Below are positions 26 to 14,958 of a stretch of 20,901 bases of DNA, piece after piece. Under the pieces are notes generated by a model that had not been told where the DNA came from, made no database searches, and saw only the letters and a program-made list of their open reading frames with translations. This stretch comes from a virus. Where the stretch lies: IMG/VR virus record IMGVR_UViG_3300031957_001581, positions 1-20,901 of that record, one strand, 5' to 3'. The translations under genes and the position numbers were made by a program. Every line of letters starts with the position of its first letter. The stretch's first letter is position 1.

Positions 26-502
26 ATGACTACTGAGAAACCTAAAAAGATAGGGCAACCTACTAAGTATCAAGAAACCTTCCCAGAATTGCTCTTGGCG
101 ATGGCGGCCGACGGTATGTCGGACTGCCAAATCGCAAGAAAGCTGGGTGTAGGGCGAACTACGCTCAATAATTGGGCAAACGACGACACTAAACCGGAAT
201 TTAAGGCTGCTTGGGAAGACAGGAAAGACTACCGACAGGCATTTTACGAAGACCTAGTCCGAAAAATCATCTCAGGAGAAGAGCAAAACTGCTCCACGGC
301 CAAAAAAGACTTACTTATCAGGACCTTAGTGACTCAATTCCCAGATAGTTGGGCAGATACTCGTAAAACACAGCTTGAAATTACAGATAAAACGAAGCAC
401 ATGTCTGATAAAGAGCTCGAAACTACGATTAACCACAAGATTAAGCAATTGTTAGGTCTGAAACCGGATTTAAAACTGGTAGATGGCGATGAAGCTAAGT
501 GA
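26..502 (+). CDS. Terminase small subunit
   Basis: Probable small terminase (158 aa), the DNA-recognition part of the packaging motor that picks phage DNA and hands it to the large subunit. An N-terminal helix-turn-helix is readable at residues 30-50, with the pattern MSDCQIARKLGVGRTTLNNW, typical of phage small terminases. The rest is helical and charged, fitting the oligomerisation and large-subunit-contact regions. It sits directly before the large terminase and overlaps it by 20 nt, the usual terS-terL arrangement. The ATG has no strong Shine-Dalgarno sequence in the 25 bases visible upstream. The HTH alone could belong to another DNA-binding protein; position decides the call. Confidence 0.85.
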   Translation: MTTEKPKKIGQPTKYQETFPELLLAMAADGMSDCQIARKLGVGRTTLNNWANDDTKPEFKAAWEDRKDYRQAFYEDLVRKIISGEEQNCSTAKKDLLIRTLVTQFPDSWADTRKTQLEITDKTKHMSDKELETTINHKIKQLLGLKPDLKLVDGDEAK

Positions 503-1997
503 TATAGAAGCTGTAGATTTCTCCAAACTGACTAGGAAGGAGAAACTAGACCTACTTAGCTCACTTACTGAGCTATCTGAGCGGGTCACTTTTAATAAGC
601 TGGCTCAGATGTATCCCCAAGAAGGACCATTCTCTAGAGACAAGTACTCTAAGCAGATGGACTTCTTCTCAACGGGACTCAAGTTTAGACAAAGAGCTCT
701 TATGGGTGGTAACCGAGTAGGGAAGACTTTAGGGGGAGGCTGCGAAGCAGCTTACCATCTAACAGGTCTCTACCCCGAATGGTGGACAGGGAGAAAGTTC
801 GACTCTGCCATAAATATGTGGGCTTGCGGTATCAACAATGGACGTGTTAGAGACACCCTCCAGGAAGTGCTCCTAGGACGCTATGGGGAGCTCGGTACGG
901 GCTTAATCCCTAAAGACCTTATCATGGACGTGTCTACCAAACCAGGCGTCCCTAAGGGCGTTTTAGACGTTTGGGTGAAGCATGTGTCAGGACACACATC
1001 ACACTTGATTTTCAAGTCGTATGAAGAAGGTATGGATGCCTATATGGGTACTGCCCAAGATGTTATCTGGTTTGACGAGGAACCGCCAGAAGACATCTAC
1101 TTAGAAAGTTTAATGCGTCTGGCTACAACCAACGGGATACTATACTGTACGTTTACCCCTCTAAACGGGTACTCCAACGTAGTAATGAAGTTCCTAGATG
1201 ATGGTAAGTTCCCAGATAGTGCCAAAATGGAACAAACTGGTAAATATGTTCAGCGGGTGGAGTGGGATGATATCCCTCACTTAAGTGCTGAAACTAAAGC
1301 CGAGTACATGGCAGGTATCATGCCTCATGAGAGAGAATCTCGTTTAAAAGGTATTCCGACGGTAGGGGAAGGTAAAGTTTACCCAGTACCTGAAGATTCT
1401 TTTATTATTGCCCCTATCGATTTAAACCCTAATTGGCCTAGAGCTTATGGTTTGGACGTAGGTTGGAACGTTACTGCTGCAGTTTTCGGAGCGTACGACC
1501 CTAAAACGGATATTTGGTACATTTACGACGAATATTATGCAGAGAAGGAATCTCCTGGGTTTCACGCAGGCAATTTAAGGAAAAAGTCTAAAAAGTGGGT
1601 ACCTGGAGCAATTGACCCTTCAGCGGCAGGTGCAGGTAAGCAAAAAGATGGTTTTGCCTTATTAGACTCATACAGAGATGAGGATCTAGATCTATATCTA
1701 GCCAACAATTCAGTAGAGCTAGGTATTAGGGCAGTCTATGAAAGGCTCTCTTCAGGTAGATTAAAAGTTTTCAGTAATTGCCAGTTTCTCATCAGAGAAT
1801 TTCGCATTTACAGGTATGACCAGAAAGGTCGAATTGTCAAGTCTAATGACCACGCTATGGATGCTTGGCGATACTTGATTATGTCTGGGCTAGATATAGC
1901 CAGATTAGAACCAGATTTAGAAGACGAATTATACGGCTCCAAGTCTAGTGTGTCTAGTTATTATGATATGACTAGAAATTCAACCACAGGATATTGA
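483..1997 (+). CDS. Terminase large subunit (packaging ATPase/nuclease)
   Basis: Motor of DNA packaging: an N-terminal ATPase pumps DNA into the procapsid and a C-terminal RNase H-like nuclease cuts it. At 504 aa it is close to P22 gp2 (499 aa). Visible motifs: Walker A GGNRVGKT at 75-82; Walker B VIWFDEE at 194-200 with the catalytic Glu; a coupling motif TFTPLNG at 223-229; nuclease acidic residues at D325 (GLDVGWN), D378 (IDPSA) and D456/D460 (NDHAMDAWRY). All key residues are present, so the enzyme looks intact. The start lies inside the terS reading frame; ATGs at 483 and 489 (M-A-M) are both possible, and neither has a strong ribosome-binding site, which suggests translational coupling to terS. 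Confidence 0.97.
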   Translation: MAMKLSDIEAVDFSKLTRKEKLDLLSSLTELSERVTFNKLAQMYPQEGPFSRDKYSKQMDFFSTGLKFRQRALMGGNRVGKTLGGGCEAAYHLTGLYPEWWTGRKFDSAINMWACGINNGRVRDTLQEVLLGRYGELGTGLIPKDLIMDVSTKPGVPKGVLDVWVKHVSGHTSHLIFKSYEEGMDAYMGTAQDVIWFDEEPPEDIYLESLMRLATTNGILYCTFTPLNGYSNVVMKFLDDGKFPDSAKMEQTGKYVQRVEWDDIPHLSAETKAEYMAGIMPHERESRLKGIPTVGEGKVYPVPEDSFIIAPIDLNPNWPRAYGLDVGWNVTAAVFGAYDPKTDIWYIYDEYYAEKESPGFHAGNLRKKSKKWVPGAIDPSAAGAGKQKDGFALLDSYRDEDLDLYLANNSVELGIRAVYERLSSGRLKVFSNCQFLIREFRIYRYDQKGRIVKSNDHAMDAWRYLIMSGLDIARLEPDLEDELYGSKSSVSSYYDMTRNSTTGY

Positions 1998-1998
1998 A

Positions 1999-3960
1999 AT
2001 GTCTTTAAAACAGATTCAAAAGTTTATAGCTTCTCCTAATATAGCAGAATTGCTTTCTGAGGAAAGGTTAGCTTATGTTAGCTCTGAAGTTATTTCAGGG
2101 TTTGAAGCAGATAAAGCCAGCATGTCTGATTGGTTAAATAATGCAGACGAGATAATGCGTTTAGCTAATCTACCTAAAGAACAAAAGCACTGGCCTTGGC
2201 CAAATGCCTCTAACATTAAATACCCACTCTTAACGATGGCTATTATTCAGTTTGGGGCTAGAACTCTACCTGAATTTGCCAGAAATGGAGATATTGTTAA
2301 GCATAGGACTATAGGTCGAGACTTAACTGGTTTAAAGTCTAGGAAAGGTCGTCGAATTGCTGAATATCTGAATTATAAACTTATGGATGAGTCGTCTATT
2401 TGGTGGAATGAGCACGATAAACTACTTCATGTAGTATCTGCCATAGGTACAGCGTTTACTAAGTCTTGTTATAATCCGTTAACGGGCCAAATAGAGAGCA
2501 AACTTCTTAACTATAGGGACATTATAGTAAATAACAGCATAAGCTGTCTAGAAGAAGCCCCTAGAATTAGTCATAGGGTGGCTTTAACCGAGAATGATAT
2601 AGTTCAAGGCATTAGAGCTGGCTTTTATACAGACTTAGACCCAATTTTACTAAGACCTAGCGATGAATTTGCTGAAATTGAGATAGAACTGATAGAACAG
2701 CACTGCTGGCTAGATTTGGACGAAGACGGCTACAAAGAACCTTATATTGTCTTAATGCATATCGATTCTAACTCTATTTTAAGAATTACAGCTAATTTTG
2801 ACGAAGCAGATGTTATTTTAAATAGTAAAGACCAGATCGTCCGGATAAATAAGAAGCATTACTTCACAGATTACCACTTCTTACCTAATCCAGACGGTTC
2901 TTTCTACTCTAATGGCTTCGGTACATTACTTCTATCTCTCAACGACACAGCTAATACAATTCTTAACCAGTTAGTAGATGCTGGGACTTTAGCTAACACA
3001 CAAGGAGGGTTTATAGGTAAAGGATTGAGAATTAGGAAAGAGAAACTAAATATAGCACCTGGTGAGTGGGTTACAGCAGAAGCTTCTGGTGGTAGAAAGA
3101 TATCTGAAGAGGTATTTCCTCTTACATACAAGGAACCTTCTTCCGTATTATTCCAACTTTTAGGGATGATTATCAATGCTACCAGAGAGCTTACCTCTAC
3201 TACTGAGGTTATGACTGGTAACGTAGAAACCCAAAATACGTCTCCAAATACCTTAGCTCAGACAATTCAGCAAGGCATGACCGTCTATTTAGCTATCCAA
3301 AGACGTATCTTTGCAGGCTTAAAGAAGGAATTAGGGCACATTTACAAACTTTACAGTAAATACATAGACCCTCAAGAGTATATTACTGTCTTAGACCTGT
3401 CGGAGCAGGAAATGATGGAAGTCTTTGCTAATGGATATGGTCAGATTGCAGATTTTGACTTAGCGTCTGCTGATGTGGTACCTGTTGCAGACCAAAACTC
3501 ATCTACTGAACTACAAAGAGCTTTAAAAGCACAAGGCTTGATGAATATGGCAGTTGCAGCAGCTCCAATATTTAATATGCAGGAAGTAGTCAAAGAGGTC
3601 TTAATATCTCAAGGGTTCACTGAGCCTGAAAGATTCTTAGCTCCTCCTCAACAAGGCCCTAACTTAGAAGAAATTAAACTTCAGTCTGAAATCGCAGATA
3701 GGTCTGCTAAGACTCAAGTCGAAGAAAGAAAATTACAATTAGAAGCTGAACGGGTGAAGACTGAACGTCTTAAAGCTGAAGCTACTGCTATAAAAGCTCT
3801 AGCCGATGCTGAGGCTGTAGAAGTTGGAACTCAATTAGACCAATATCAACTCCAGGTAGATAATATGTTTCGTACTATCGAAGTTGGAGACAAATCTAGA
3901 GAGATAGATAGTAAGGTAGCAGCTAATGCAGCAAAATCAGCAGGAACCCCTAAATCTTGA
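1999..3960 (+). CDS. Portal protein
   Basis: Probable portal (653 aa), the ring at one capsid vertex through which DNA enters and leaves. It follows the large terminase by one base, with AGGA about 8 nt before the ATG. The region around residues 65-77 (WPWPNASNIKYPL) is a pattern I associate with P22-type portals of podophages, and the central part is mixed alpha/beta as in portal wings. Residues about 556-625 are rich in Lys, Glu, Gln and Ala with long helix propensity, consistent with a C-terminal helical barrel. P22 gp1 is longer (725 aa). The tail ends in a low-complexity AANAAKSAGTPKS segment that overlaps the next gene. Confidence 0.9.
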   Translation: MSLKQIQKFIASPNIAELLSEERLAYVSSEVISGFEADKASMSDWLNNADEIMRLANLPKEQKHWPWPNASNIKYPLLTMAIIQFGARTLPEFARNGDIVKHRTIGRDLTGLKSRKGRRIAEYLNYKLMDESSIWWNEHDKLLHVVSAIGTAFTKSCYNPLTGQIESKLLNYRDIIVNNSISCLEEAPRISHRVALTENDIVQGIRAGFYTDLDPILLRPSDEFAEIEIELIEQHCWLDLDEDGYKEPYIVLMHIDSNSILRITANFDEADVILNSKDQIVRINKKHYFTDYHFLPNPDGSFYSNGFGTLLLSLNDTANTILNQLVDAGTLANTQGGFIGKGLRIRKEKLNIAPGEWVTAEASGGRKISEEVFPLTYKEPSSVLFQLLGMIINATRELTSTTEVMTGNVETQNTSPNTLAQTIQQGMTVYLAIQRRIFAGLKKELGHIYKLYSKYIDPQEYITVLDLSEQEMMEVFANGYGQIADFDLASADVVPVADQNSSTELQRALKAQGLMNMAVAAAPIFNMQEVVKEVLISQGFTEPERFLAPPQQGPNLEEIKLQSEIADRSAKTQVEERKLQLEAERVKTERLKAEATAIKALADAEAVEVGTQLDQYQLQVDNMFRTIEVGDKSREIDSKVAANAAKSAGTPKS

Positions 3961-4198
3961 GAGATTAGATAGGTGGTTAAACGATACAGATACTAAGGTC
4001 ATTTTAACAGCGTTCAACTTAGCGAAAGCTGACATAGTTCAACTGTTGTTAGTAGAGAGCGATAACATACAAGATCCATATTTAGATAGAAGAGTCAACC
4101 ACTACAGTGGATCACTAAGAACGATTCAACAGCTATTGGATAAACAAGAATTAATAAGTTTGTTAGAAGACCATAATTTATTAACTAGAGAGGTATAA
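3926..4198 (+). CDS. Hypothetical protein between portal and co-chaperonin
   Basis: Small 90-aa protein that I do not recognise. It starts within the last 35 nt of the portal gene, with AAGG roughly 10 nt before the ATG, and its stop codon directly abuts the ATG of the GroES-like gene, so both junctions suggest coupled translation. It is predicted mostly helical with two leucine-rich stretches (around residues 29-45 and 67-85), no cysteines, no membrane segment and no signal peptide. The tight packing in the head operon implies a role in assembly, perhaps a small partner of the portal or of the co-chaperonin. This is inference from position only. Confidence 0.75.
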   Translation: MQQNQQEPLNLERLDRWLNDTDTKVILTAFNLAKADIVQLLLVESDNIQDPYLDRRVNHYSGSLRTIQQLLDKQELISLLEDHNLLTREV

Positions 4199-4552
4199 AT
4201 GGCAGTTGCGTTAGGAACACATTTAATAGTAGAAGTCCCAAAATTATCTAAGAAGTCTAAGGGGGGAATTATTCTCTCTGAAGACACATTAAACAGAGAA
4301 ACCCAAGCATTAAATGTAGGTAAGATTAAATCAATGGGGGAACATTGTTTCTCTAATTACCAAATTAAACCTAATGTTGGCGATTTAGTATTCTTTATTG
4401 CCTATGCTGGAGACAGAATTCCTACTACAAAAGACCATAACATAAGACTGATTTATGATGAACATTGTAGGGGAATAGTAGAACCTGGGGATTTGGACGG
4501 TATGGAAATCGATTTTGAACAGGACTTAGAGAAATTAGCTGCTAAATCATAA
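4199..4552 (+). CDS. GroES-like (Cpn10) co-chaperonin
   Basis: Protein of 117 aa resembling the GroES/Cpn10 family, the lid that caps GroEL during folding. Matches to GroES in order: an N-terminal strand with LIVEVPK; the mobile-loop motif GGIIL at 22-26 (GGIVL in bacterial GroES, the hydrophobic tripeptide that docks on GroEL); a VGKI strand at 40-43; VGDLVFF at 60-66 (compare VGDIVIF); and IRLIYDEHCRGIVE at 82-95, matching the final GroES strands. About 22 extra C-terminal residues are acidic. E. coli GroES is 97 aa and phage T4 gp31, which replaces GroES for capsid folding, is 111 aa. Its place directly upstream of scaffold and coat suggests the same job. GAGG lies 6 nt before the ATG. Confidence 0.85.
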   Translation: MAVALGTHLIVEVPKLSKKSKGGIILSEDTLNRETQALNVGKIKSMGEHCFSNYQIKPNVGDLVFFIAYAGDRIPTTKDHNIRLIYDEHCRGIVEPGDLDGMEIDFEQDLEKLAAKS

Positions 4553-4568
4553 TATACAGAGAGGAAAT

Positions 4569-5438
4569 ATGTCATTAGAAGAGTTAAAAGCAAAACTTCC
4601 AGATGAGCCTGAGATAGCTCCTATTGTCGAGGAACCCTCAATAGTTGAGTCTAGTACCGAACTTACTGAAGAAGAACAAAAAGCTATGGAGCAGGGATGG
4701 AGACCAAAAGACCAGTATTCGGGTCCTGAAGAAGATTGGGTAGATGCTCATACTTATTTAGGTCGAGGTACATTCTTAAAGCAGATTAAATCTCTTAAGA
4801 GTGAGGTTGAAGAACAAAAAAGGACCATGGAATTATATGGTGAGCATTATAAACGAATGGAAAAGCTCATATATGATAAGGCTAAAAGAGAAATCGAAGA
4901 ATCTATGCGGGCTGCTAGGGCTACTGGCAATTTCGATGCCTACGAAGAAGCTCAAAAGAACTTACAAGAATTAAAACCTATATCTGAGCAACCGCAAAAT
5001 CCTGCAGATAATCCGGCTGTTAAGAAGTTTATTGCGGAAAATGCTTGGTATACAAATCCTATTACAGATGAAGATTTCGAACTTAAAGCTATAGCTATGG
5101 CTCACGATGCTAAATATAGCAGAGATAATCCTAACGCCACTATCGAGGAAGTAGTAGCATATGTAGAAAAGAAAATTCAAGAGAAAAAGCGAGGATATAT
5201 GACTAATAGCAATAGAGAATCGGCTCCTCCAGCCACTTTGACTGGTTCAGCTAAAGCTGCAGCTCCAAAAACTAATCCTAACTTACCACATCCAGAATGG
5301 AATAAACTGAGCGATTTCCAAAAAGAAGTGGTTAAGAAGATGACAGATTCGAAATTTGGCGTTAAAGGCTATAAAGAGAACCCAGCTGAAGGCGTCAAAA
5401 AGTACATTGAAGAGCTGAAAAAACTAGGTGCTATTTAA
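4569..5438 (+). CDS. Scaffolding-like head assembly protein
   Basis: Protein of 289 aa with scaffold features; it would template procapsid assembly and leave before or during packaging. The first 40 residues are strongly acidic. GWRPKDQY...EEDWVDA at 43-60 is a motif I know from many phage scaffold-like proteins. Residues 68-136 are a charged helical or coiled-coil segment. The C-terminus (about 243-289) is a lysine-rich helical tail, as in P22 gp8 (303 aa) where the basic end binds coat. A Pro/Ala linker lies near 219-240. GAGAGG stands just upstream of the ATG. No protease gene is seen nearby, so scaffold removal without cleavage, as in P22, is plausible but unproven. Confidence 0.8.
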   Translation: MSLEELKAKLPDEPEIAPIVEEPSIVESSTELTEEEQKAMEQGWRPKDQYSGPEEDWVDAHTYLGRGTFLKQIKSLKSEVEEQKRTMELYGEHYKRMEKLIYDKAKREIEESMRAARATGNFDAYEEAQKNLQELKPISEQPQNPADNPAVKKFIAENAWYTNPITDEDFELKAIAMAHDAKYSRDNPNATIEEVVAYVEKKIQEKKRGYMTNSNRESAPPATLTGSAKAAAPKTNPNLPHPEWNKLSDFQKEVVKKMTDSKFGVKGYKENPAEGVKKYIEELKKLGAI

Positions 5439-6602: not shown

Positions 6603-7511
6603 ATGTCTATAATTAATACCGGTACGTTACCTAAGGACCTACTCCCAACGGTACGTGCTTTCTTCGGAGCTGCCTATAACGACGTACCTGCTCAATGGGC
6701 AGAGATCTTTAAAGATAAGCAAGCTTCTAGTCGAGCTTTCGAAGAAGAAGTCGCTTTAGCAGGTCTTGACCTCCCAGTCATGAAACCTGAAGGCGAGTCT
6801 ATCTCTTACGATGCTCCAACTCAGATGTATGTTAGCCGCATTAACCATAATGCTTATGCTAGTGGTATTATCATCACTCACGAAGCTGTTGAAGATGCTC
6901 AAGTATACAAAGTAGCTACCCATCGAGCAGAAATGCTTGGTCGTTCTTTTGCTCAGCTTAAGAATGTATTAGCTGCTAACGTATTGAACAGAGCATTTAC
7001 CTCTGGCTATACAGGTGGTGATGGCGTAGTTCTCTGCGCTACTTCCCATGCTGATGCTAACGGTGTAGCAGTTTCTAACCGTATGGCTGTAGATGCTCCT
7101 CTTTCTGAGGCTTCTTTAGAGCAATCTTGGTTAGACATCCGTGCTATGAAGGATAATAGGGGCCTTAGAGCTCTTTTGAATCCTAAAAAGCTTATCGTTC
7201 CAAATAACTTAAAATTTGAAGCTGATAGACTTTTAAATTCTATGGGCCGTCCAGGTACTGCAGATAACGACAAGAATACTCTTTCTGGGATGTTCTCTGA
7301 AGGTGTGGCTGTTCTTGACTATCTGACTGATACCAATGCTTGGTTCGTTCTTACGGATTCTCCAAATGGTTTAGTACACTATGAAAGAGAAGCTCCAAAA
7401 GTTATGGATCACGTAGAATTCGACTCTATGAACATGAAATTCGCTATGTATACTCGTTATAGCTTCGGCTGGAACGACTATCGTGGAGTTTACGGTTCAG
7501 ACGGCGAATAA
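6603..7511 (+). CDS. Major capsid protein
   Basis: Probable major coat subunit (302 aa), building the icosahedral shell. The order fits an HK97-like fold: an N-terminal arm with FFGAAYNDVPAQWAEIF at 20-36, an extended E-loop-like part (about 43-75), a long spine helix (about 93-130), then the P-domain and A-domain with GDGVVLCATSHA at 139-150 and NPKKLIVPNNLKFEADRLL about 55 residues later. SHA and P-N-x-L patterns of this kind occur in Mu-like and related capsid families. It is far shorter than P22 coat (430 aa), so an extra surface domain like the P22 I-domain is probably absent. AGGAG lies just upstream of the ATG. Codon choice looks more selective than in the flanking genes, as expected for a highly expressed protein. 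Confidence 0.9.
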   Translation: MSIINTGTLPKDLLPTVRAFFGAAYNDVPAQWAEIFKDKQASSRAFEEEVALAGLDLPVMKPEGESISYDAPTQMYVSRINHNAYASGIIITHEAVEDAQVYKVATHRAEMLGRSFAQLKNVLAANVLNRAFTSGYTGGDGVVLCATSHADANGVAVSNRMAVDAPLSEASLEQSWLDIRAMKDNRGLRALLNPKKLIVPNNLKFEADRLLNSMGRPGTADNDKNTLSGMFSEGVAVLDYLTDTNAWFVLTDSPNGLVHYEREAPKVMDHVEFDSMNMKFAMYTRYSFGWNDYRGVYGSDGE

Positions 7512-11743: not shown

Positions 11744-11829
11744 TGGCTCGTGCCCCCCGCAAGTGTTTATTTATAAATACTGAGGACTTACTCTCGGGCT
11801 TCATATTAATTAGGAGTCTTTCGATATGA
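11743..11829 (+). CDS. 28-codon mini-ORF bridging gp10-like and fibre genes
   Basis: Short ORF (MARAPRKCLFINTEDLLSGF followed by eight more residues) that fills the gap exactly. Its ATG shares a base with the TAA of the preceding gene, AGGAGAGG at 11729-11736 gives it a strong Shine-Dalgarno, and its TGA overlaps the ATG of the fibre gene (ATGA). No homologue is known to me. It could encode a real micro-protein, serve only to carry ribosomes into the fibre gene, or be a remnant of a longer gene. The Shine-Dalgarno also encodes Arg-Arg-Gly-Arg of the upstream protein, so chance is possible. Confidence 0.4.
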   Translation: MARAPRKCLFINTEDLLSGFILIRSLSI

Positions 11830-12422
11830 GAGCCCCGCTGGAAGTCCCTTTCTTTGGTAAGAATGACGAAATGTCTCCTGCTTGGCGAGATTATTTCAAC
11901 CAGAATGAAAGCTACTCCTTTTTAGGTCTAAAGAGATTAAATGCCGACTCTACAGCAACCTTACAGATTCCAGACGCTAGAAAGTATAGCAAGATAGTCT
12001 TTGAGCTTTTCGATGTAGTAAGGAGTACTTCCACTACTGTGCTGTTAAGGACTTCCGCTGACGGTGGGGCTAACGTTGCATCTAGCTCTGGAAACTATAG
12101 ATGGGCTATTGATTACTTAAGAGGCTCCGATGCAGCTTCAACTACCGCTAATAGCTCTAGTACTGGGACTAGTATACAACTTTCTGGAACTAACTCAGCT
12201 AACCCAATTAGTGGTCGTATTGAATTATATAGCGCAGATGCTACTACAACTAAACCTCTTTTTGTGTACGACACTATATGTGCTCAGACTTACCCTGAAA
12301 GAGTTAGGGGCTCAGGTATGAGAGATTCTGCTTCTGCTATTAATGCTGTTCAGTTCTTACCGGGTTCGGGGAATTTCACATCTGGAGCCATTCTAGTGTA
12401 TGGTGTGAAGAGACAAACATGA
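11826..12422 (+). CDS. Short fibre/receptor-binding-type protein
   Basis: Protein of 198 aa. Residues about 1-35 form an N-terminal piece (PLEVPFFGKNDEMSPAWRDY) that may anchor to the tail. The remainder is a beta-rich domain that matches the C-terminal domains of the next two genes: a Y-x-K-IVFELFDVV strand, then LLRTSADGGA, GRIELYSAD, and the closing block INAVQFLPGSGNFTSGAILVYGV, parallel to the IRFYMGTGNISSGTFTLYGVK endings downstream. It lacks the DGGTG shaft repeats. It looks like a minimal fibre with tip but no shaft. AGGAG at 11812-11816 precedes the ATG by 9 nt. It could also serve as a tail plug or needle replacement, as no P22 gp26-like needle is seen; that is speculation. Confidence 0.65.
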   Translation: MRAPLEVPFFGKNDEMSPAWRDYFNQNESYSFLGLKRLNADSTATLQIPDARKYSKIVFELFDVVRSTSTTVLLRTSADGGANVASSSGNYRWAIDYLRGSDAASTTANSSSTGTSIQLSGTNSANPISGRIELYSADATTTKPLFVYDTICAQTYPERVRGSGMRDSASAINAVQFLPGSGNFTSGAILVYGVKRQT

Positions 12423-13690
12423 GCGATATTACTGATAGACAAAATGGCGATGATATCGAAATAGCTCGTCGAGATGTTCGAGAGAGAGTTACTGATATTG
12501 TCTACACTAATTCTGAAGCTGCTGACGGTGAGGTTCTACAGTGGAACTCTACTGCATCTGCTTTTCAGTCTGTAACCCCTAATTCTGCTGGTTTGTATAT
12601 TGAAGGTGGTACTGATTTACCTGTGACTGATGGTGGTACTGGCGCATCTACTGCTTCGGCTGCCCGCACTAATTTAGGTATTGGTACTATAGCTACTCAG
12701 GATGCTAATGCTGTAGCTATAACTGGAGGTACTGTCTCTGGCGTAACACTATCATCTTCTGCTGCTACAATTACTGGAGGTACTGTCTCCGGTGTAACTT
12801 TATCGTCTTCAGCTGCTACAATTACTGGCGGTAGTGTTACCGGGATAACTGACTTAGCTGTTGCTGATGGTGGTACTGGTGTTTCTACATTAACAGGTAT
12901 CGTTAAAGGTAATGGTACGTCTGCATTTAGTGCTGCTTCAGCTGGTACAGACTACTATGCTCCTGGAAGCACAGACGTAGCAGTTGCTGATGGTGGTACT
13001 GGTTTATCTTCAGCTACTGCATATGCAGTTCTATGTGGAGGAACTACTTCGACTGGAGCTTTCCAGTCTATAGCTAGTGTTGGGACGTCAGGGCACGTGT
13101 TAACATCCAACGGTGCTGGGGCGTTGCCGACATTTCAAGCAGCTCCAACATATCCTGGCCAATATTACGATTTGATATCGTCACAAACTGCCTCTAATAG
13201 TGCGCAAATAGATTTTACAAGTTTAAGCAGCTCGTATCAAGATTACATAGTTATATTGACAGACATAGTTCCAGTTTCCGATTCCTATCTTTATTTAAGA
13301 TGTAGTACAGATAACGGGTCTTCCTTTGATTCTACCTCAGATATTTATGAATTAGTTTATAGGTCAGTAGAAGATGGTTCCCAGGCTGCAGGGGGTGTTA
13401 ACGTTAACGCTACTGAAATTAGGCTGAATTATAATAGAGTTCTAGATGCTGGATCCAATTCTAACTACTTTGGAATTGTTAGGATATCTAATCCTTCTCA
13501 ATCCTCTGTATATAAAGAGATATCTTGTATAGGTGCTATGTGTGAGGCTACTGCACCAGTTTACGCAGGAAGTAATAGGACTTCTGGAATATATAAGTCT
13601 ACCACTGCAGTAAACGCTATTAGATTTTATATGGGTACTGGCAACATATCGTCCGGGACTTTCACATTATATGGAGTCAAGAAATCGTGA
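12419..13690 (+). CDS. Tail fibre protein, copy A
   Basis: Fibre protein of 423 aa. The N-terminal part (1-60) is charged and probably attaches to the tail. A shaft region (about 62-240) carries DGGTG motifs at 71, 150 and 191, the familiar GGTGASTASAARTNLGIG fibre repeat, and two identical 17-residue units (100-116 and 117-133) beginning ITGGTVSGV. A C-terminal globular domain (about 248-423) ends in GNISSGTFTLYGVK and probably contacts the receptor. The ATG overlaps the previous stop (ATGA), so translation is likely coupled. Residues about 111-222 are encoded by DNA identical to copy B, while both flanks have diverged. Trimeric assembly is expected from known fibres, not shown here. Confidence 0.82.
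   Translation: MSDITDRQNGDDIEIARRDVRERVTDIVYTNSEAADGEVLQWNSTASAFQSVTPNSAGLYIEGGTDLPVTDGGTGASTASAARTNLGIGTIATQDANAVAITGGTVSGVTLSSSAATITGGTVSGVTLSSSAATITGGSVTGITDLAVADGGTGVSTLTGIVKGNGTSAFSAASAGTDYYAPGSTDVAVADGGTGLSSATAYAVLCGGTTSTGAFQSIASVGTSGHVLTSNGAGALPTFQAAPTYPGQYYDLISSQTASNSAQIDFTSLSSSYQDYIVILTDIVPVSDSYLYLRCSTDNGSSFDSTSDIYELVYRSVEDGSQAAGGVNVNATEIRLNYNRVLDAGSNSNYFGIVRISNPSQSSVYKEISCIGAMCEATAPVYAGSNRTSGIYKSTTAVNAIRFYMGTGNISSGTFTLYGVKKS
12719..12820 (+). repeat. Two tandem 51-bp units in fibre copy A
   Basis: Units 12719-12769 and 12770-12820 each encode the same 17 residues (ITGGTVSGV then TLSSSAAT), and a partial third unit begins at 12821 (ITGGSVTGIT). The two DNA units differ at about 7 positions, all synonymous. 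Loss or gain of one unit would keep the frame and change shaft length. Confidence 0.9.
12750..13083 (+). repeat. 334-bp perfect direct repeat, copy 1
   Basis: Read side by side, 12750-13083 and 14015-14348 are identical base for base at a constant offset of 1265, with no gap. Mismatches appear at once on both sides (12748-12749 and 13084). It covers the shaft of fibre copy A. Identity extends to synonymous positions, so the copies were exchanged or duplicated recently. Confidence 0.93.
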
Positions 13691-14958
13691 CAATAAGCGA
13701 TGATCAGTTAAACAATGAAGTAGATATTCAACAAGACCTTACCAATAGAACTACGACGAATATTATAGTAGATTCTGCTAATTTAGCTAATGGTGACTTC
13801 CTTCAGTATGACTCTACAAGTAGGCAATTTGAACCTAGGACAGCTGCTGAAGCTGGTTTATATGCTAGTGGTGGTACTGACGTAGCTGTAACTGATGGTG
13901 GTACCGGAGCATCTACAGCATCTGAAGCTAGAACTAATCTAGGGTTAGGCACTATTGCTACACAAAATAGCAATAACGTTACTATAACTGGGGGTACTGT
14001 CTCCGGTGTAACTTTATCATCTTCTGCTGCTACAATTACTGGAGGTACTGTCTCCGGTGTAACTTTATCGTCTTCAGCTGCTACAATTACTGGCGGTAGT
14101 GTTACCGGGATAACTGACTTAGCTGTTGCTGATGGTGGTACTGGTGTTTCTACATTAACAGGTATCGTTAAAGGTAATGGTACGTCTGCATTTAGTGCTG
14201 CTTCAGCTGGTACAGACTACTATGCTCCTGGAAGCACAGACGTAGCAGTTGCTGATGGTGGTACTGGTTTATCTTCAGCTACTGCATATGCAGTTCTATG
14301 TGGAGGAACTACTTCGACTGGAGCTTTCCAGTCTATAGCTAGTGTTGGATCTTCTGGGTACGTATTAACTTCTAATGGGGCCGGTGCTTTACCTACCATG
14401 CAGAGCCCTGGAGCAGTAACTAATAAATACGTTTTTATCTCAACTCAGTCTGCTTCCACCAGCGCTCAGATAGATTTCACGGGGCTAGATAATTCGTACC
14501 AAGTCTACTTCGTACAGCTAGATAATATAGTGCCTTCTACAGATAACGTCACTTTAAATATGAGAGTTGGTACTGGAGGGACTCCTACGTATGACACTGG
14601 CTCTAATTATGCTTGGTCTGGTGCAGCTGTTCACACTGCAGGAACTGAAGTGAATGGTGGCTCGTCGTCTGCTACAGAAATGCAAATAGTTCCTACTGGT
14701 TCTAATACTACTAATTTAGGGTCTTCTACTGGAGAAAATCTATCTGGTATAGTATACTTCAGTAACCCTTCTAACTCTTCTTTGTATAAAGTTGCTTCTT
14801 GGAAAGTAGGTGGTTTTTCTGCTGGAGCACTACCTATGTCTTGTGAAGGGTCGGGTACATACAAATCTACTACTGCTGTCACGGCGATAAGATTCTTGAT
14901 GTCTTCTGGGAATATAGCATCTGGTACATTTACATTATATGGAGTCAAAAACTCATGA
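13687..14958 (+). CDS. Tail fibre protein, copy B
   Basis: Second fibre protein of 423 aa, paralogous to copy A and of exactly the same length. It starts at a GTG that overlaps the stop of copy A (GTGA), with no clear separate ribosome-binding site, so translational coupling is likely. DGGTG motifs lie at 70, 149 and 190, and residues about 110-220 are encoded by the perfect repeat shared with copy A. The N-terminal 60 residues and the C-terminal domain (about 245-423, ending GNIASGTFTLYGVK) are recognisably related to copy A but clearly diverged. The pair could form a hetero-fibre or two fibres of different receptor specificity; this is inference. Confidence 0.82.
   Translation: MTISDDQLNNEVDIQQDLTNRTTTNIIVDSANLANGDFLQYDSTSRQFEPRTAAEAGLYASGGTDVAVTDGGTGASTASEARTNLGLGTIATQNSNNVTITGGTVSGVTLSSSAATITGGTVSGVTLSSSAATITGGSVTGITDLAVADGGTGVSTLTGIVKGNGTSAFSAASAGTDYYAPGSTDVAVADGGTGLSSATAYAVLCGGTTSTGAFQSIASVGSSGYVLTSNGAGALPTMQSPGAVTNKYVFISTQSASTSAQIDFTGLDNSYQVYFVQLDNIVPSTDNVTLNMRVGTGGTPTYDTGSNYAWSGAAVHTAGTEVNGGSSSATEMQIVPTGSNTTNLGSSTGENLSGIVYFSNPSNSSLYKVASWKVGGFSAGALPMSCEGSGTYKSTTAVTAIRFLMSSGNIASGTFTLYGVKNS
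13984..14085 (+). repeat. Two tandem 51-bp units in fibre copy B
   Basis: Same 17-residue unit as in copy A, at 13984-14034 and 14035-14085, followed by a partial third. The two units differ at about 4 positions, all synonymous. The second unit and most of the first fall inside the perfect 334-bp repeat. Confidence 0.9.
14015..14348 (+). repeat. 334-bp perfect direct repeat, copy 2
   Basis: Partner of 12750-13083 (offset 1265, no mismatch found by eye). It lies in the shaft region of fibre copy B. Homologous recombination between the two copies would delete 1265 bp and give one in-frame chimeric fibre gene, because both copies lie in the same register of their reading frames. Confidence 0.93.

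Follow-up and report, generated by a model that had tools for sequence, protein, structure and literature searches.

Among phage-encoded lids for the GroEL chaperonin, gp31 of T4 is the classic case of one required for capsid folding, and its gene lies outside the gene 20-23 head cluster. It serves the T4 capsid protein, with gp23, at about 56 kDa, being slightly too large for the GroEL-GroES cage, and a missing roof hairpin is a known trait of this lid (PMC6318259). GroES is also found among the 13 core genes of the HTVC023P-type pelagiphages (82 genomes; PMC9599517), has been labelled in CRP-901-type roseophages (PMC10149686), and in the Pseudoalteromonas phage B8b is encoded among the tail genes (PMC4294664). 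Phage GroES proteins are familiar from gp31, and the protein described below is one more of them. Viral use of group I chaperonin parts is likewise seen in the virioplankton viral chaperonins and in the GroEL of phages EL and AR9; the studies of these, including that of Marine et al. in 2017 on virioplankton, reportedly centre on phages with a GroEL gene.

The locus considered here lies in a 20.9 kb viral fragment (IMG/VR record IMGVR_UViG_3300031957_001581, positions 1 to 20,901), the whole of which we call the window. The features on which the argument depends are the following, L001 being one of the related loci recovered in the survey reported below:

483..1997, plus strand: terminase large subunit (TerL), 57.1 kDa; Pfam Terminase_6N/6C
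1999..3960, plus strand: portal protein, 73.2 kDa; PHROG 1216, E 7.8e-25
3926..4198, plus strand: small conserved ORF of 90 aa between portal and GroES; from the ORF list, with a homologous ORF in L001
4189..4194, plus strand: putative ribosome-binding site before the GroES start, purine-rich agaggt; read from the sequence
4199..4552, plus strand: Cpn10/GroES-type co-chaperonin, 117 aa; Pfam Cpn10, PHROG 3188, AlphaFold2 model and fold search, 47/47 relatives
4262..4276, plus strand: GGIIL, residues 22-26, counterpart of the GroEL-binding segment of the GroES mobile loop; alignment
4340..4378, plus strand: shortened roof segment, residues 48-60 (13 residues); alignment length and model
4484..4549, plus strand: acidic, probably disordered C-terminal tail, residues 96-117; composition, pLDDT and relatives
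4569..5438, plus strand: putative scaffold protein, helix-rich, 289 aa, 33.0 kDa; position, composition and family alignment
6603..7511, plus strand: major capsid protein, 33.2 kDa; Pfam Phage_capsid_4, E 7.5e-12, and PHROG 371 major head protein, E 2.9e-18

The first-pass annotation of this DNA, made from its letters alone, had read a GroES-like co-chaperonin in the 117-residue ORF. The ORF is real as it was read there, with an ATG at 4199 and a TAA ending at 4552, and the GGIIL, the VGDLVFF at residues 60-66 and the IRLI...GIVE at the end of the barrel do follow one another in the GroES order. The protein matched the Pfam Cpn10 family (PF00166) with an E-value of 7.2e-6 and a score of 26.4 bits, above the curated cut-off of 21.1, and PHROG 3188 'co-chaperonin GroES' with an E-value of 2.9e-8; the NCBIfam GroES models also matched it, with scores under their own cut-offs. 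A relative with 71% identity is encoded by another viral contig, and when 47 relatives were searched against Pfam all of them matched Cpn10 and no other family. A profile built from these 47 recovered solved GroES-type proteins with E-values down to 1.4e-28, the whole barrel being aligned, including the closing strands. An AlphaFold2 monomer model computed from the window and viral-contig sequences (mean pLDDT 82, pTM 0.74) has the GroES beta-barrel fold. In a fold search of the PDB, the first 16 entries were all co-chaperonins (Z 10.8 to 7.0), among them GroES of H. thermoluteolus (Z 10.8 over 88 residues, 2.5 Å), Thermus Cpn10 (9.9), human mitochondrial Hsp10 (9.8), E. coli GroES (8.6 to 8.8) and T4 gp31 (8.3, over 69 residues at 1.8 Å, and 7.6), and the unrelated dehydrogenases with a GroES-like domain ranked after them, at Z 7.0 and below. 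T4 gp31 was found by this fold search and was not retrieved by the family-profile search of PDB sequences. Among the viral models of BFVD, the best fold matches were named 'co-chaperonin GroES, uncultured virus'. By profile and by fold, the ORF thus encodes a genuine Cpn10/GroES family protein, and on both counts the first-pass reading of the family held.

The window protein shares with bacterial GroES the Pfam family, the barrel fold and a GGI-type mobile loop, at about 20% identity; unlike bacterial GroES it has an acidic tail, no adjacent groEL and a location among head genes. To examine the loop and the roof we used an alignment of 139 phage-side and 9 bacterial host Cpn10 proteins, in which GGIIL of the window is aligned with the host GGI-I/V-I. 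Within the GroEL-binding tripeptide, 137 of the 139 phage-side sequences have I, V or L at the first position and most have L or I at the third, with variation at the middle position. With hydrophobic residues kept in the first and third columns and a variable middle one, a strict GG-hydrophobic regular expression, which matched only 83 of the 139 members, was dropped as a test of the loop. The loop pattern is conserved in the family, so that the mobile loop named in the first-pass annotation stands, in its canonical form in the window protein itself. Three Cpn10 copies in the same slot have much altered mobile-loop motifs (L031, 5625-6011; L038, 1166-1495; L063, 5728-6072), and these may have another chaperonin partner or may have lost docking.

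The roof segment has 13 residues in the window protein; bacterial GroES has 17, and the phage family at large mostly has 18-21, within a range of 9 to 26. The short form is rare, being seen in 7 of the 139 sequences. The monomer model has no strand between residues 47 and 62, and in this prediction the window protein may, like gp31, lack the roof hairpin. The extended acidic C-terminus pointed out in the first-pass annotation is likewise real, with seven D/E and two K/R in the last 22 residues, though it varies among relatives: the L001 protein ends at residue 108, with the tail nearly absent, and those of L098 and L101 have longer acidic tails. The model is unreliable in this region (pLDDT below 50 for residues 109-117). 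The GroES of the HTVC023P-type pelagiphages and CRP-901-type roseophages is homologous to the window protein (26-32% identity) and occupies the same slot next to a homologous capsid, but it has a longer N-terminus and a longer roof, with a conserved PWCK-like stretch that is absent from the window protein. As judged from the alignment, the variable roof and the altered loops of some members may reflect drift in partner or function.

In the window, the TerS, TerL, portal and capsid assignments are backed by profiles, and the capsid gene lies 2.05 kb downstream of the GroES gene. The latter had been placed directly between portal and scaffold. The slot is correct, but the 90-aa ORF, whose start lies within the portal gene's 3' end, separates portal from GroES; neither Pfam nor PHROG gave a significant family match for this ORF, nor any profile match for the putative scaffold. 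The TAA of the small ORF abuts the GroES ATG, 16 bases separate the GroES gene from the next gene, which has its own ribosome-binding site, and no promoter or terminator signals above chance were detected near the GroES gene. Weak matches to DUF3830 and to the 'head morphogenesis' PHROG 931 fell below significance and were set aside. Further downstream are an SU10-type adaptor, a head-closure protein, fibre-like proteins and a DNA-ejection homologue; given the adaptor, head-closure and DNA-ejection homologues, a short-tailed phage of the P22/SU10 type is a fair reading, in agreement with the podovirus-like phage suggested earlier.

To determine how general this arrangement is, we surveyed viral contigs, a bacterial and archaeal genome collection and INPHARED. 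The Cpn10 alignment (A1) had no stretch conserved enough to serve as a query for scanning these collections, and the capsid was therefore used as the anchor; the window capsid as sole query drew in one relative only. Membership of the capsid clade was set at no less than 259 bits on a clade model, and loci with a readable upstream region were counted. In the first round, a Cpn10 ORF lay upstream of the capsid on the same strand in 63/63 loci, at a median distance of 2.07 kb, and over all rounds this held for 130 of 130 interpretable phage or prophage loci, usually at about 2.1 kb. The count of 130 includes near-copies; clustering at 85% identity left 109 phage-side Cpn10 sequences, the set used for the tree. 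In L176 and L013 the stretch from Cpn10 to capsid contains insertions. Two apparent Cpn10-less loci, L129 and L170, were rejected as assembly joins to unrelated bacterial DNA or to a run of N. In INPHARED, 21 records carry a homologous capsid, and the 18 closer ones, which comprise pelagiphages, roseophages, Caulobacter, Alcaligenes, Planktothrix/Synechococcus and spring-water phages, carry Cpn10 among the head genes. The linkage to scaffold and coat, described as unusual in the first-pass annotation, is instead the rule in a large phage lineage, and the annotations of pelagiphages, Caulobacter phages and roseophages already show it. In the open-access literature we found no prior description of Cpn10 co-occurrence throughout a capsid lineage or of its persistence after relocation.

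This capsid lineage is seen, in phages and prophages, in contigs assigned to many bacterial phyla; the titles of metagenome-bin contigs are weak evidence of host, and for Gluconacetobacter, Salinisphaera and Sphingomonas the sequences come from named strains. The chromosome of Gluconacetobacter diazotrophicus PA1 5 has two capsid-Cpn10 modules (L143 and L157), and related ones occur in about ten further Gluconacetobacter genomes; these modules are likely prophages. In the tree, the bacterial GroES copies form one supported group and the deep forks are not resolved, for which reason we make no claim on the origin of the phage Cpn10.

As an unbiased control, viral records were drawn by an arbitrary 15-mer, ignoring gene content (n=28, 19-64 kb). 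Two of the 28 carry this capsid lineage, and in both a Cpn10 gene precedes the capsid by about 2 kb, one of the two Cpn10 genes having been missed by Pfam and caught by the Cpn10 family model (1.4e-15). None of the 26 records without this capsid has a Cpn10 over the cut-off (Fisher's exact test, 2/2 versus 0/26, p 0.0026), these negatives being by Pfam alone, as the family model was run only on the regions of the two capsid-bearing records. A sister capsid branch, nearly all of whose members score 97-175 bits on the clade model, has the gene order portal, scaffold-like gene, two small genes and capsid, and no Cpn10 was found in its portal-capsid slot. Cpn10 is present elsewhere in the genome in all four of the largest sister-branch records tested (44-48 kb), namely vir526, where it lies upstream of the terminase, ct7ZZ929 (MW202601), where it is close to the gene for a single-stranded DNA-binding protein, and two IMG/VR records. 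The first two are among the remaining INPHARED records, as is MW202604, which matches MW202601 in length and capsid coordinates. Among the smaller sister-branch pieces only one more (G018) has Cpn10, and as these records are fragments its lack in the others is not interpretable. Furthermore, Cpn10 was found in none of six phages with distant portal homologues (20-27% identity) that do not match this capsid model. With a pelagiphage and a roseophage in this set, the presence of Cpn10 is not a matter of host type alone.

A search for GroEL genes in seven phage records of the capsid clade and four of the sister branch found none. In this they differ from phages of the EL/AR9 type and may resemble T4, whose gp31 is a phage lid unaccompanied by a phage GroEL. 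Of eight bacterial genomes with the module, six encode a GroEL that scores over the cut-off, with a separate groES close by, from which their phage-type Cpn10 copies clearly differ. Given that the phage records are without GroEL while most module-bearing bacterial genomes have it, use of the host GroEL is a straightforward inference. The sister-branch record vir526 (L352, BK063670 38000-44208), in which GroEL is likewise lacking, is assigned to the archaeal Methanomicrobiales.

Taken with its near-obligate co-occurrence with this capsid lineage in the surveyed loci, these features make it quite likely that the phage Cpn10 is a gp31-like lid for host GroEL, with the Phage_capsid_4-type capsid protein as its most likely client. 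Such a protein would form a heptameric lid, dock on the infected cell's GroEL by way of its GGIIL mobile loop, and replace or compete with the host GroES late in infection, helping a phage head protein, most likely the capsid, to fold before scaffold-directed assembly. The first-pass annotation had likewise pointed to the capsid protein, or else another virion protein; the capsid protein is probably the main client. Since distant-portal phages without this capsid have no Cpn10, the capsid or the co-travelling scaffold is favoured over the portal or the host; as the capsid, scaffold and portal genes keep one another's company, their co-occurrence with Cpn10 does not point to the capsid with certainty. 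The shared slot in more than 100 related phages and prophages suggests that the folding of head proteins of this type calls for a special lid. Against such a need, a capsid of 33 kDa is small enough for the ordinary GroEL-GroES pair, and, as it is well below the size of gp23, the larger-cage rationale for gp31 is not directly transferable.

A GroEL-docking lid could also be needed for the scaffold, the portal, the terminase or many phage proteins, its location among head genes then serving the timing of expression. This is consistent with the distances among GroES sequences, which correlate with those of capsid, scaffold and portal alike (Spearman 0.67, 0.61 and 0.59) and single out no client, with the positions of Cpn10 in ct7ZZ929 and vir526, and with the B8b gene among tail genes (PMC4294664). 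We consider it unlikely in view of the lack of Cpn10 in all six distant-portal phages with another capsid and, by Pfam, in the 26 randomly drawn phages. Moreover, the usual limit of the GroEL cage is about 60 kDa, and the portal, at 73 kDa, is larger than that. The variable roof and tail, the acidity of the latter and the changed loops of members such as L063 and L031 would fit a Cpn10-fold protein that has left GroEL-assisted folding and either takes a direct part in head assembly or serves the phage by blocking or retuning the host GroEL; the hydrophobic first loop position in all but two phage-side sequences and the canonical GGIIL of the window protein make this quite improbable. That the gene is a passenger with no special relevance to the head proteins is scarcely credible: gene order is fixed in most loci, and linkage alone could therefore keep it there, but the sister branch has kept the gene even where it has moved, which speaks against a mere passenger, as does its persistence across members divergent enough to leave more than a hundred clusters.

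Extending the preferred reading, that of a host-GroEL lid for the capsid, we tentatively propose, with rather less confidence, that the Phage_capsid_4/gpT-like capsid lineage may be obligately dependent on a dedicated GroES-type lid, and that capsid and lid may have coevolved as a folding-and-assembly unit, even after relocation. A lid that stays with one capsid type across diverse hosts would provide many natural capsid-lid pairs, and the question of why a capsid needs a special lid could be put to a direct test, among other places in the Gluconacetobacter prophages and in Caulobacter and Alcaligenes phages that are in culture.

Apart from the co-chaperonin, the window has two tandem genes for fibre-like proteins of 423 aa each (12419-13690 and 13687-14958), 62% identical to each other, with C-termini that diverge and a near-identical middle region (300 nt, 86% DNA identity). 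Their C-terminal family, PHROG 14820, is also that of the 198-aa ORF at 11826. The tandem pair looks like a duplicated receptor-binding cassette.
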